Made by a program: the position numbers and the translations under genes. Positions 11,119-34,677 of a stretch of 64,000 nucleotides of DNA are shown piece by piece. The notes beneath the pieces are model-generated. The model was not told the DNA's origin and searched no databases. It saw nothing but the letters and a program-made list of their open reading frames with translations. The stretch comes from Myrmaecium sp. VS I D KN 1. Lineage: Eukaryota; Ascomycota; Dothideomycetes; Valsariales; Valsariaceae. The stretch covers positions 186,001-250,000 of the forward strand of contig JADQAV010000044.1 of NCBI GenBank assembly GCA_019775845.1, in the 5' to 3' direction. The first letter of the stretch is position 1, and the number at the start of each line of letters is the position of its first letter.

Positions 11119-13090
11119 TCAGCCTCCCATCCCAGCAACAGCGCCCTGAGCCAGAACCGGAGGAGGCGGTGGCGGCGGCGGCGGGTTTATCTCCATCGCA
11201 TGCGCTGCCGCTGGCGGAGGAGGCAGAGGCGGAGGAGGAGGGGGCATGGCCGTCGAGTCCGACACCGGCGACGGTCGGACGCGCGGACTTCCGCCTCCAT
11301 CATGATAGCTATCGGCATGGCTTCCGTCATGCATTTGTACGTCTTCCTCTCCTTCTCCGTCTCCCTCTTGCTCGCCTTTTCTCACGCGCTCTTCTTTGGC
11401 TTCTCCTTCCTCTTCGGCTTCTGCTTTAGCTTCTACTTCTGCTTCTTCTGCTTCTGCTTCCTTTTCTTCTCCTGCTTCTTCTGCTCCTTCACGCTTCGCT
11501 CTTGCTCGTGCTCTCTTCCCCCTTTCCACATCCACATCCTCCACATGCTCCTCCTCCTCTCCCATCCTCTCCTCCCCCTTCTTCGTCACCGGCACATCCC
11601 CAGCAACCGCCTCCCCTCCACCCCCTCGTTCAAAAGCCACATGCCCTCCCTGCTGCATCTGCAGCCCCGCGCTTACCGGTCCTCCGCCAGAGAACGCCGG
11701 GTGGTAATGGTGGTGGGGGTGGTACGTCGGACTACTCATGCACAGCAGCGTATCCACCGCGTCCTTCTCCGCTTGATGGGAGGGCATGCGAAGCACCGGG
11801 GCGGGGGTGAGGGGGGTGTTATGCTGTTGCTGCTGCTGCTGCTGGTAATACTGGCTGGATTCGGTTTGAGCGGAGTGACGGCGGAGGAGGGTGGAGTGGG
11901 TGTGGGTGGAGGAGAGAGAGGTGGTGCGGCGGTGGTTGTGGTGGTGGATGGTGGTGCTGCTGTGATGGGAGGAGGGGGGAAAGTCGACGGGGGGTGCGAG
12001 GGCGGGGGCGGGGGAGCTGAGGAAGGGGGTGTTGGGTTGAGGATGGGGGTAGTGGTGGGAGGGCGGCGATTCGGGAACACGAGTGCTGGCGGAATGCCAG
12101 AAGGCTGTGGGAGATGTGGGGTTAGCATGTGGTGAAGGGAGGGGGTTGCGGAGGAAACGTACTGCTCGACGGAGTGCCGTGGAGGGATAGGGAGGTGGTG
12201 CCGGGCGGACTACCGTGACCCCCGGCCACCGGCGAGGCGAGGTGAGGGGCGGCGGAGCCGTCGGAGAAGCCGCTCGGCCGGCGGCGGCGGAGGTGATCCG
12301 CGACCATCGGGGAGGAAGTCGGGGAGCCCTCGAGCTCGTCGACGGACTGTCGCTCCCACCCGTGCTGCACCTTCACCATCGCGTACGACAGGCGCGTCTT
12401 GAGCTTGGCGGAGAGCTGGGAAACGATGAGCGAGGACGCGTCGTCTCCTCCCCGGGGCGCCGGACGACCCACCTCTCCGATCCGGCTCAGGTTGGAGTCG
12501 AGGCTCTTGTTGCGGGCGTGGTGTCCGCCGCCGCCGCCGCCGCCGTGGACGCTCCGGGCGAACCGGCTCAGCTCCGACTCGGACCCGACGCTCTTGACCT
12601 CGCCGCTGGCCGTGCGCTTGTGTCCGCGTGCGGGATGCGGCGTGTCCAGCGCCATCGGGCTGGCCAGCGCGCTGGGCGTCGGCGTCGCGGCTTCCGCCCG
12701 ACCATCCGCCTTCACGGGCGTGAGCTGGCGCGTGGAGGACTCCGGAACGGCGCGCTCGGACGCGTCGCCGTTCGTCGCGACCGGCTCGTTTTCGTCTGTC
12801 CGGCGCATGTGCGCGGCTTCGTTCGAGGACATGGGGGATGTCTGCTCGGTGGTGGTGGTGGTGCTGGCAGCATTGGAGGAGGCATCGCTCGTCGTGGACG
12901 CGGTCAGACACGACGGCGCGGTTGCCGCGCTGCAGGGGTGGTGGTTGGCGGTAGACGCGGTCGAGTCTTGCGAGTTGGACGGCGGCGGCGGTGAGAACGA
13001 GTCAGGCGGGCTCTCGTGCGACGCGACGGGTGGGTTGGCGGCGTGGATGCCGGTGGGATCTGTGATGCTTGCGAGACTGGGTTGGTACAT
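11119..13090 (-). CDS. Whi5/Nrm1-type cell-cycle transcriptional corepressor (GTB motif)
   Basis: Family members bind SBF or MBF and repress G1/S genes until CDK phosphorylation. Exons 13090-12163 and 12104-11119 (intron 12105-12162, GTACGT donor, branch GCTAAC, acceptor CCCACAG); 637 aa. The N-terminal part is Ser/Thr/Pro-rich and disordered with several S/T-P sites. The GTB-like motif LKTRLSYAMVKVQHGWE lies at about 232-250. Splicing creates SSSTFWHSAST; a second compact block, QAEKDAVDTLLCMSSP, lies at about 418-433. The C-terminus holds a polyQ run, an acidic Glu/Ala helix and polyproline runs. The start at 13090 (MYQPSLASITDPTG) is preferred over an upstream in-frame ATG at 13414 whose extra 108 residues look like translated leader. 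Assignment to Whi5 or Nrm1 specifically is not possible by eye. Confidence 0.75.
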
Positions 13091-14258
13091 GATCGTGTTT
13101 CTTGTGTGAACGAGTGGATAAATGGATGAATCAGGAAGAATCGCTTCAGCGTACAAGCCCTCCTTCGTGTTCGCAGGGACAGGGCTTGGACACGTAAGGA
13201 CGACACAGTAGGTACGGAGTACTCGGGAGGTAGAGTACAGTACAGTACTTAGGTACAGTCGAGTCGGCATATGACACGCACCTCTCATAGTATCAATGGC
13301 GGGGTAATCCGGGCAGCGCGCCTCCGCAGCAGCAGCAGCAGCAGCAGCATGTCCTCCCTCCTCCCGGTCCTTCACGTTAAGCGCCCCCGGGAGAGGAGGC
13401 GGTGCGTGCATCAACCCGCCGGTCTTTCCCGCTTTCTCGTGCGGCGCGGAGCAGGGCAGCGGCGATTAATCTCTAGCTTTCGTTTCACACGCTCTGAAGC
13501 GCTTTCTTTTTCGCGGATGAAGGAGCTCGAAGACGTCAGACGGAGGAGAAGGAGAAGGAAGAGGCGATCTCGATCCTCCTCAACGCGCGACTCGCTCGGC
13601 TCAGTCGGACGGGGGTGAGGGGGGTTCGACAGGGGGGTGATGGAAGCCGCGGCTTGTAGTGATGAAAACCGCGTATATCGATCTTCGATATTCACGCAGT
13701 TGAGTTAATTCAGTATGTAGTGGTTGATTGAGATTCAGGATTGAAGTCAGAAAACTGCCCAGCAACATAATGAGGTACATCACTTTAGCCGTCGCGTCGT
13801 CGCGTTGCCGCGCCCAAGCGCGACGTGCCGGGACGCGACGAGCGGGAAGTGCGATGATGCGTGGGGTACGCGAGGTCACGCCCCCTCCGTTTCCCGTGAC
13901 GCACAATGAGAAGGGTAAGGCACGCCATGAAAAATAAAGAAAAATAAATATATCGAGATAAAAGGAATGAAACAAACGAAGAAGAGACGTTAAATAATAA
14001 GAGAAAAGCTAGGATGAATATATATACAGCTGTATGGGCCAGGAGAGATCAAGTACGTAAGAACGAAAGAGGAAAATTATAGATGCTGTCTAGAATACAT
14101 TACTACAAGATGGTATGAATAAGGAAGTAAATAGTAGCTTCTAGATGCACATCCACACTTCGATAACCATTTCAGGCCTCTCAAAGACGAGCCTCGTACC
14201 TAAAGAGAACATCACATCTCACAACCCTTCGCCAAATACACACATACCATCAACTTAC
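13091..14258. promoter_or_regulatory. Promoter and leader of the Nrm1-like gene; 3' flank of the TBC gene
   Basis: About 1.2 kb. In the orientation of the minus-strand Nrm1-like gene, an SBF/MBF-like element CGCGAAAAA lies at 13515-13507, about 420 bp upstream of its start codon. Short repeats AGTACAGTACAGTAC occur around 13236-13250. The segment 13930-14140 is AT-rich and resembles the TBC gene's 3' flank. No gene seen. Confidence 0.4.
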
Positions 14259-32137: not shown

Positions 32138-34677
32138 ATGAGCAGCGTCGTTGGTGTGGATTTGGGTTCCCTCAACACAGTCATTGCTGTCGCGAGGAAC
32201 CGCGGTGTCGATGTCGTACGTATCTTCCTCCCTCTCTACGGCCACAGGATCAACGCCTGCTAACCGCCTCTCAAGATCACAAACGAAGTCTCCAACCGCG
32301 CTACGCCGTAAGTTTGCACCTACCCCGCCATCCACCGCACGATAACGAAGGCTTACAATATCGCACAGGACATTGGTAGGCTTCGGCCCCAAGTGCAGAT
32401 ACCTGGGCGAGTCCGCGAAGACCGCCGAAGTTTCCAACCTTAAGAACACCGTCGGCTGCCTTACCCGCCTGCTCGGCCGCACGATCAACGACCCCGACGT
32501 CCAGGTCGAGAAGGATTACATCAATGCGGCCCTCGTCGACGTCGATGGCCAGGTGGGCGTTGAGGTCAACTATCTCGGCAAGAAGGAGAAGTTCTCGGCC
32601 ACTCAGGTCGTTGCCATGTTCTTGACCAAGGTCAAGTCCACCACCCTCGCCGAGACCAAGCTTCCTGTCAAGGATATCGTTCTCAGCGTGCCTGAGTGGT
32701 ACACCGACGCCCAGCGCAGGGCTATGATCGATGCCGCCGAGATCGCTGGTCTCAACGTCCTCCGTCTCATCAACGACACCACCGCTACCGCCCTCGGATA
32801 CGGTATCACCAAGGTTGACTTGCCCGGTCCCGAGGAGAAGCCCAAGCGCGTGGTCTTCGTCGATGTCGGTTACAGCAACTACACCGCCTCCGTCGTCGAA
32901 TTCCGCAAGGGCGAGCTGGCCGTCAAGTCCAGCGCTTCCGACCGTCACTTCGGTGGCAGGAACTTCGACAAGCTCCTGGTGGACCACTTCGCCCAGGAGT
33001 TCAAGCAGAACTTCAAGATCGATGTCAACGAGAACCCCAAGGCCCGTTTCCGCGTTGCCGTCGCCGTCGAGAAGCTCAAGAAGGTCCTCTCCGCCAACGC
33101 TGGCGCTCCCATCAACATCGAGTCGGTCATGAACGACGTTGATGTTCGTGGTTTCCTTAAGAGAGAGGAGTTTGAGGCTCTTGCTAAGCCCCTCCTTGAG
33201 CGTGCCACCAAGCCTCTCGAGCAGGCTCTCGCCGAGGCCAACATGAAGCCCGAAGACATTGACCACATCGAGTTGGTCGGTGGCTGCACACGTATCCCCG
33301 CCCTGAAGGCCATCATTCAGGACTTCTTCGGCAAGCAGCTCAACTTCACCCAGAACGCGGATGAGGCCATTGCCCGTGGCTGTGCCTTCAGCTGCGCTAT
33401 CCTCTCCCCTATTTTCCGCGTCAGGGACTTCTCTATTCACGACGTGGTCAACTACCCCATCGAGTTCACCTGGGAGAAGTCTCCTGACATTCCCGATGAG
33501 GACACTAGCCTTACCGTCTTCAACCGCGGCAACAACATGCCCTCTACCAAGATTTTGACCTTCTACCGCAAGCAGCCTTTCGATCTCGAGGCCCGCTACG
33601 CCAAGCCCGAGCTGCTCCCCGGCTCTGTTAACCCTTGGATCGGCCGCTTCTCCGTCAAGGGCGTCAAGGCTGACGAGAAGGACGACTTCATGATCTGCAA
33701 GCTTAAGGCCCGCCTTAACCTGCACGGTATCCTTAATGTGGAGCAGGGCTACTACGTGGAGGACCAGGAAGTGGAGGAGCCGATTCCGGAGGAAAACAAG
33801 GAGGGTGATGTAGGTGTTCCTTCTTCTACTCAACAGCAACCCGCCGATCTGAGCGGTCCTAGCCCTGCCATGCCGGCTACGCGTTCAGAAGACTCACCAT
33901 CTCCTACGCCGATGCCAAAGCGTGCCAAGACCGGGGCCGCTCATGTCGCGCCACAGTCCTATGTTGCGGCTTCTGTTTCAACGCCAGATGAAGATGGAAC
34001 CATCCAGACGCTGACCACTCACCTCTCGCAGAAGATGGACGTTGACAGCAACGAGCCTCCCAAGACCCGCAAGGTCAAGAAGCAGGTGCGCAAGGGCGAC
34101 CTTTCCCTTGTTCCTGCCACCGCCGCCCTGGACACCGCCACCAAGGTGCTTCTCGCCGAGCGCGAGATGGAGATGATCATGGCCGACAAGCTTGTCGCCG
34201 ACACCGAGCACGCCAAGAACGAGCTCGAGGGCACCATCTACGAGCTCCGTGACAAGATCGACAACGTCTACGCTGACTTCGCCAGCGAGGAGGAGAAGGA
34301 GAAGCTTCGGGAGAGGCTGACCACTATCGAGGTATGTGATGTTCCGTTTCGAGAGTCTCGATGAAGTGTGCTAACATGATAACCAGGACTGGCTCTACGA
34401 TGAGGGTGATGACACCACCAAGAACATCTACGTCGCCAAGCTCGAGGAGATCCGCGCCGTCGCCGGCCCCATCGTCCAGCGCTACAACGACAAGCAGCAG
34501 GAGGAGCGCGAGAAAATCCTCAAGGCCCAGGAGGAGGAGGCTGCCCGCAAGCGCGCTGAGGAGGAGGCCAAGAAGAAGGCCGAGGAGGAAGCCAAGGCCG
34601 CCGCCTCCGAGAACAAGGACGAGGAGATGAAGGACGCCGAGACGACCAAGCCCGAGGAGGTCGAGGAGAAGCAGTAG
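32138..34677 (+). CDS. SSE1: Hsp110-family chaperone / Hsp70 nucleotide-exchange factor (Sse1/Hsp88)
   Basis: Cytosolic Hsp110 that exchanges nucleotide on Hsp70 and holds unfolded proteins. Exons 32138-32215, 32276-32307, 32369-34331 and 34387-34677 (introns 60, 61 and 55 nt); 787 aa as read. The ATPase domain starts MSSVVGVDLGSLNTVIAVAR, then NDTTATALGYGI and ELVGGCTRIPALK; the Hsp110 C-terminal domain has KTRKVKKQVRKGDLSL and ends in a charged Glu/Lys tail (EEVEEKQ). Within exon 3, 33810-34031 has a GTAGGT donor, a CGCTGAC branch site and a CTCTCGCAG acceptor, is 222 nt (74 codons) and has no stop; removing it gives 713 aa, the normal Sse1/Hsp88 length, and joins EENKEGD to KMDVDSN as in other fungi. 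The short form is probably the main product. Heavily C-ending codons suggest high expression. Confidence 0.95.
33810..34031 (+). other. Candidate in-frame intron (exitron) inside the Hsp110 gene
   Basis: 222 nt, starts at a codon boundary with GTAGGT, ends CTCTCGCAG after a CGCTGAC branch site 22 nt upstream. No in-frame stop. Encodes 74 residues rich in Ser, Pro, Thr and Gln with SPSPTPMPKRAKTG, an NLS-like basic patch next to S/T-P sites. The codons are mixed, unlike the strongly C-ending flanks, which favours intron origin. Confidence 0.65.

Follow-up and report, generated by a model that had tools for sequence, protein, structure and literature searches.

The closest fungal precedent is yeast PTC7, whose stop-free intron, of a length divisible by three (3n), gives rise to two proteins in two compartments; that study calls the production of two functional proteins by intron retention rare (PMC3597508). 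Among chaperones of the Hsp110 family, mammalian Hsp105 alpha and beta are described as differing by a splicing event that adds or omits a segment of 43 amino acids, the shorter form being nuclear and heat-induced (PMC4771732). Exitrons are characterized as coding sequences with splice sites weaker than those of introns, the retained form being the major one (PMC4484396). Retention of intron 1 in the hsp7-like transcript of Trichophyton rubrum is described as varying with conditions, and a second case from the same fungus, hsp75-like, was not validated by its authors (PMC6830096). Our literature searches on exitrons, Hsp110/Hsp88 and Sse1 splicing brought up no fungal Hsp110 for which in-frame intron retention is reported.

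Here we analyse a 222-nt segment of an Hsp110 (Sse1/Hsp88 type) gene that lies in a window of 64,000 nucleotides, by which we mean the whole stretch of DNA under analysis. As in PTC7, the candidate is a stop-free fungal intron of 3n length, and both mRNAs would encode full proteins (PMC3597508). For PTC7, unlike Hsp110, both proteins and their locations are reported; its intron shows conservation across twelve Saccharomycetaceae as a stop-free 3n segment and is predicted to encode a transmembrane helix (PMC3597508), whereas the Hsp110 insert is probably disordered. The likeness to Hsp105 alpha/beta consists in an Hsp110-family protein to which splicing adds or from which it omits a segment, with the difference that the shorter form is described as the nuclear one there, whereas here the longer form would bear an NLS-like motif (PMC4771732). 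The Hsp110 event would be an intron retention, unlike that of Hsp105 alpha/beta. The alternatively spliced segment of Hsp105 occupies the same linker region. The hsp7-like transcript of T. rubrum likewise belongs to the Hsp70 superfamily; its retention, however, is described as leading to premature stops, is not in frame and concerns a gene other than Hsp110 (PMC6830096).

The Hsp110 gene and the anatomy of its 222-nt segment

The encoded protein belongs to the Hsp110/Sse1 family, matching 3c7n_A with a phmmer E value of 1.6e-192 and possessing both the NBD/SBD-beta and the helical-lid blocks, while Pfam HSP70 matches the large exon of the gene (E 4.2e-133). Yeast Sse1 entries are its best solved relatives (phmmer, PDB), and Sse1, represented by 3 distinct sequences, is the only fungal Hsp110 in the best 60 of 91 PDB matches. 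Searched against its own genome (25.66 Mb, 66 contigs), the protein returns 12 matches at E <= 1e-5: the Hsp110 gene itself accounts for four, each an exon, and the eight others, at 27-39% identity, are probably other Hsp70-superfamily genes. Fungal relatives carrying the gene were found in neither of two contig collections scanned: a scan of one gave 47 loci, all bacterial by title, which cover the query in part at 23-53% identity, and a single scan of the other, a viral collection, gave no relative. The 758 bases upstream of the start codon contain one TTCnnGAA, a two-unit site that occurs at 0.53 per kb in the 260-kb stretch described below, and lack any three-unit heat-shock element; the sequence thus gives no evident sign of heat induction.

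Briefly, an unsupervised gene finder was trained on 260 kb of the same contig (the window plus 196 kb) and gave 67 genes and 140 introns, all counts being made after removal of those predicted genes that scored no more than 20 or overlapped a better-scoring one. The 26 of the 140 introns that are in-frame and stop-free were set aside as ambiguous. To prevent circularity, site models were rebuilt on 111 definite introns, namely those whose retention breaks the frame or adds a stop, with the three undisputed introns of Hsp110 excluded. The features of the locus are as follows.

32138..34677, + strand: Hsp110 (Sse1/Hsp88 type) gene, start to stop codon (gene model; phmmer to yeast Sse1)
32216..32275, + strand: intron 1, 60 nt, GTACGT donor; retention brings an in-frame stop (gene model)
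32308..32368, + strand: intron 2, 61 nt, GTAAGT donor; retention shifts the frame (gene model)
33810..34031, + strand: candidate intron 3, 222 nt, phase 0, stop-free (gene model; splice-site and coding statistics)
33810..33815, + strand: 5' splice site GTAGGT, at the 51st percentile of the 111 definite introns; the hexamer occurs in 7 of 111
33909..33929, + strand: codons of the NLS-like PMPKRAK, translated only upon retention (pattern [PR]xxKR[^DE][KR])
34009..34015, + strand: branch-like CGCTGAC, with 17 nt between its branch A and the 3' splice site
34020..34031, + strand: 3' splice site CACCTCTCGCAG, together with the branch at the 91st percentile of definite introns
34062..34100, + strand: basic block KTRKVKKQVRKGD, upstream of the C-terminal helical region and common to both forms (gene model)
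34332..34386, + strand: intron 4, 55 nt, GTATGT donor; retention shifts the frame (gene model)

The original prediction had described a stop-free segment of 222 nt with a GTAGGT donor at a codon boundary, a CGCTGAC branch and an acceptor, and the gene model bears out each of these elements. The donor at 33810 directly follows GAT, and the acceptor CTCTCGCAG (CGCAG) ends at 34031 and is itself directly followed by AAG, which creates a tandem CAG/AAG acceptor. The 74 codons of the segment contain no stop in frame 0, three in frame 1 and two in frame 2. Removal yields a protein of 713 aa, just as had been proposed, and retention one of 787 aa that ends at the same stop codon; the gene's remaining introns, given there as 55-61 nt, measure 60, 61 and 55 nt. 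Upon retention, 33810..34031 encodes 74 residues rich in Ser, Pro, Thr and Ala, including the peptides SEDSPSPTPMPK and TGAAHVAPQSYVAASVSTPDEDGTIQTLTTHLSQK. The proposed PMPKRAKTG is present in this insert together with five S/T-P dipeptides, and the conserved block said to follow it is KTRKVKKQVRKGD at 34062-34100. The same donor can also be paired with an internal acceptor, CGCCACAG, ending at 33956 (+), which would delimit a stop-free 3n intron of 147 nt; its signals are weaker (10.9 vs 13.7 for the 222-nt pair), and it is a possible minor form or third isoform. Use of an acceptor at 34048 instead of 34031 would result in a frameshift.

Alignment of the retained form with Sse1 (3c7n) falls into two blocks, residues 1-511 and 601-741, of which the first extends to residue 511 of the Sse1 chain and the second starts at its residue 521, beginning at the basic block shared by both forms. 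The insert lies wholly within the gap between the two aligned blocks, and the candidate intron thus brackets a part without Sse1 counterpart. Between the blocks there are 15 linker residues in the spliced form, 89 in the retained form and 9 in 3c7n, with the Sse1 gap itself varying by structure (9 in 3c7n, 8 in 2qxl, 4 in 3d2e). These lengths support a linker in the spliced form that is close to that of yeast Sse1.

The surrounding DNA, from 1518 to 59744, is an ordinary gene-rich region. Pfam matched 10 of 15 open frames examined there on both strands. The matched neighbours encode a SWIRM/Myb protein, an SNF2 helicase, a CPSF/RSE1-type protein, a RhoGAP and CENP-L, and further matches are to an AAA ATPase, a MutL homologue and, over two open frames, a Sec7/BIG-type protein. 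Also matched is a 527-aa open frame antisense to the Hsp110 exon (32301-33884, - strand), which hits PF10712 NAD-GH at E 1.9e-30. We take this family to stem from the antisense shadow frame of Hsp70 genes, formerly mistaken for glutamate dehydrogenase, and the frame is probably not a gene.

Strength of the splice signals

With the rebuilt models, the candidate intron attains a splice score of 13.8 (donor 5.4, branch plus acceptor 8.5), which places it at the 78th percentile of the 111 definite introns. Its donor, branch and acceptor resemble those of the genome's own introns, as is characteristic of a U2-type spliceosomal intron. The predicted introns of this contig show the branch consensus CTRAC, which, along with their shortness and the genes present, suggests a filamentous ascomycete. 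The branch-A distance of 17 nt lies within the 5-95% range of definite introns (10-30.5 nt), and the length of 222 nt is likewise within their range, at least 150 nt being reached by 8 of the 111 and at least 200 nt by 4. The other 26 in-frame, stop-free intron calls have a median score of 7.7, and none reaches 13.8.

Signals of this strength are scarce in coding sequence. A scan of predicted coding exons of at least 150 nt (124,653 bases, 67 genes) identified the candidate as the sole 3n GT-AG pair of 60-400 nt to score as high. When the 67 coding sequences were shuffled synonymously, in 60 sets and with the insert removed, they contained on average 0.33 such pairs of 60-400 nt and 0.13 pairs of 150-300 nt per 129.5 kb of coding sequence, and not one of 2000 synonymous recodings of the insert peptide matches the candidate's score at the same ends. 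The sites are therefore unlikely to have arisen by chance or as a by-product of the insert peptide. Taken alone as a first step, the claim that the segment is truly spliced appears very likely.

Elsewhere in the window, at 13060-13281 (- strand), the gene finder made a second 222-nt, in-frame, stop-free intron call, with a good donor and a weak branch and acceptor; this may be a coding stretch that was falsely spliced out.

Coding and noncoding character of the segment

Among 29,659 noncoding 222-nt windows, a background in which 'noncoding' includes any missed gene and in which overlap of the sampled windows renders the percentages not independent, 3,467 (11.7%) are stop-free, from which the chance of a segment being both stop-free and 3n is about 4%. 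Introns and exons for these comparisons come from our own gene finder, applied to a single contig over 260 kb. Of the 26 ambiguous in-frame intron calls, five are 144-222 nt long, with weaker sites; if these five are real introns, the stop-free 3n class is less rare here than 4%.

The segment displays a three-base periodicity (G = 27.6, matched by none of 5000 permutations, a training-independent result) that is attained by 1.4% of noncoding windows overall and by 3.8% of those that are stop-free, corresponds to the 41st percentile of 1,565 coding windows and is equalled by none of 17 predicted introns of at least 120 nt. This periodicity arises at the amino-acid level, from C in the second position of Ser, Pro, Thr and Ala codons, and not from codon selection. 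Frame 0 scores best of the three frames, and its coding score of 0.47, a leave-out value from an order-4 Markov model trained with the gene left out (4.7 with the segment in training), exceeds that of 96.4% of the 3,467 stop-free noncoding windows; among 2,418 cross-validated coding windows it ranks at the 14th percentile, and among the 239 that are rich in P/S/T/A/Q at the 24th. Base composition also approaches that of exons, with a GC of 0.586 compared with 0.582 and 0.607 in the flanking exon parts and a predicted-intron median of 0.535 (segment at the 76th percentile, n=140). The gene finder called the segment exon, but once the coding model is trained on the other genes only, exon and intron paths tie, at -1.6 to +0.8 nats depending on the length prior.

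Synonymous codon use in the segment resembles that of noncoding DNA and departs widely from usage elsewhere in the gene. Its GC3 is 0.486 vs 0.69-0.95 in all 640 of the 74-codon windows elsewhere in the gene. The synonymous log ratio of average gene usage vs background is -5.8, which ranks the segment at the 4th percentile among 1,536 coding windows and at the 58th among stop-free noncoding ones. When the gene's own usage replaces the average, the log-likelihood relative to background is -22 for the segment, whereas windows from the rest of the gene never fall below +19.6. This usage suggests that the segment is probably not translated at the level of the gene; in a gene so strongly biased, a constitutively translated segment should carry the bias unless very young.

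A repeat or introner origin was considered and rejected, a DNA search of the own genome returning the segment alone. As a protein, the insert has four matches in the genome at E <= 10, one of them the segment itself; the best of the others (34% over 68 aa, E 0.002) falls in a compositionally biased part of another protein and is for that reason read as shared composition, not homology. No Pfam family matches the insert at E values up to 1.

Like published exitrons, the segment is stop-free, has canonical splice signals, 3n length and coding exon flanks and, if retained, would lie inside a long exon (PMC4484396). Exitrons tend to have a GC above that of introns and below that of exons (PMC4484396); the segment's 0.586 compares with the intron median of 0.535 and with 0.582 and 0.607 in the flanking exon parts. 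Exitron sites tend to be weaker than those of introns (PMC4484396), whereas the segment's stand at the 78th percentile of the definite introns. Exitrons are also coding sequence; the segment combines noncoding-like synonymous usage with a coding-like periodicity and an intermediate frame-0 score. Of the original prediction, the analysis supports that the Hsp110 linker holds a stop-free segment that can be spliced in frame; an exitron in the strict sense is not supported, given the strong sites and the noncoding-like usage.

Interpretations of the segment

In our judgement a plain intron is the simplest reading, and we consider it probable on balance that the segment is a genuine long intron, mostly removed, whose retained product is leakage without a dedicated job. 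U2-type splicing would remove it like the other three introns and generate the 713-aa chaperone from most of the mRNA, although its length may lower splicing efficiency somewhat. Unspliced mRNA should escape nonsense-mediated decay by virtue of its 3n length and lack of an in-frame stop, following the rule described in PMC2911113, and its translation would yield the 787-aa protein, in which the retained 74 aa would probably form a disordered loop within the linker that joins the beta substrate-binding domain to the helical lid. Supporting a plain intron are the site score, above 78% of definite introns and all 26 ambiguous calls, the singularity of the splice pair in coding exons, the Sse1-like linker left after removal, the GC3 and synonymous usage, and a length within the range of definite introns. 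The cost of this reading is the roughly 4% chance of a stop-free 3n segment, plus the periodicity, and the frame-0 score, the exon-like GC and the gene finder's exon call oppose it.

A more tentative reading, possible and clearly less probable, holds that the intron serves a dual, exitron-like use in which both forms are purposely made: splicing would give the ordinary 713-aa Hsp110, whereas the disordered linker loop gained by retention, NLS-bearing and phosphorylatable, would alter location or partner choice. Such use would explain the stop-free 3n length and the periodicity, and it draws further support from phase 0, from a periodicity and a frame-0 preference that only 1.4-3.8% of noncoding windows attain, from the near-exon GC and from an insertion point in the linker. 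Precedents exist in PTC7 (PMC3597508) and Hsp105 alpha/beta (PMC4771732), and stop-less 3n introns are described as rarer than expected in Yarrowia and as selected against in other species (PMC2911113). Against it stand the noncoding-like synonymous codon use, splice sites stronger than those described for published exitrons (PMC4484396) and the five long ambiguous intron calls, by which the stop-free 3n class may be commoner than 4%.

The motifs of the insert, PMPKRAK and the five S/T-P sites, also speak for deliberate retention. PMPKRAK fits [PR]xxKR[^DE][KR], which we take to be a class of importin-alpha signals. This pattern occurs, however, in 2.0% of the 3,467 stop-free noncoding translations and in 0.4% of 1,565 predicted-protein windows of 74 aa, which makes it mildly unusual in the insert, and the shared block KTRKVKKQVRKGD provides a basic stretch in both forms anyway. 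At least five S/T-P dipeptides are found in 3.3% of the 1,565 coding windows. Function is proven by neither the PMPKRAK motif nor the S/T-P count. It is a possible but rather unlikely reading that keeping or removing the linker intron generates two chaperones of which the retained one carries a nuclear-import loop phosphorylatable by proline-directed kinases; such a pair would constitute an independent counterpart of the mammalian Hsp105 alpha/beta switch, arising through another kind of splicing event and reversed in polarity.

Less probable still is a constitutive coding insertion, in which the segment would never be spliced, the protein would always have 787 aa, including a disordered loop specific to the lineage, and the resemblance to splice sites would be fortuitous. 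The open frame, the exon call and a periodicity and coding score within the span of coding windows, including those rich in P/S/T/A/Q, count in its favour. However, the rarity of such sites in shuffled coding sequence, their absence from every recoding of the peptide and the fact that the splice pair brackets a part missing from Sse1 make a segment that is never spliced unlikely, and its GC3 and codon usage are far from the rest of a strongly biased gene. A structured RNA such as a snoRNA hosted by the segment, which would explain why it is longer than the gene's other three introns, is highly improbable, as an Rfam search of 33700-34100 finds nothing at E values up to 5, the whole window contains no hit at the gathering threshold, and the folding z-score is -1.17, with 27 of 200 shuffles folding equally well or better.

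If the segment is a plain intron, it is a mildly unusual one that predictors may call exon, as our gene finder did, thereby adding a false 74-aa loop to a conserved chaperone. If both forms are made, this Hsp110 would join the fungal examples in which intron retention yields two functional proteins, and the Hsp110 linker would be suggested as a recurrent target of isoform switching in fungi and animals.
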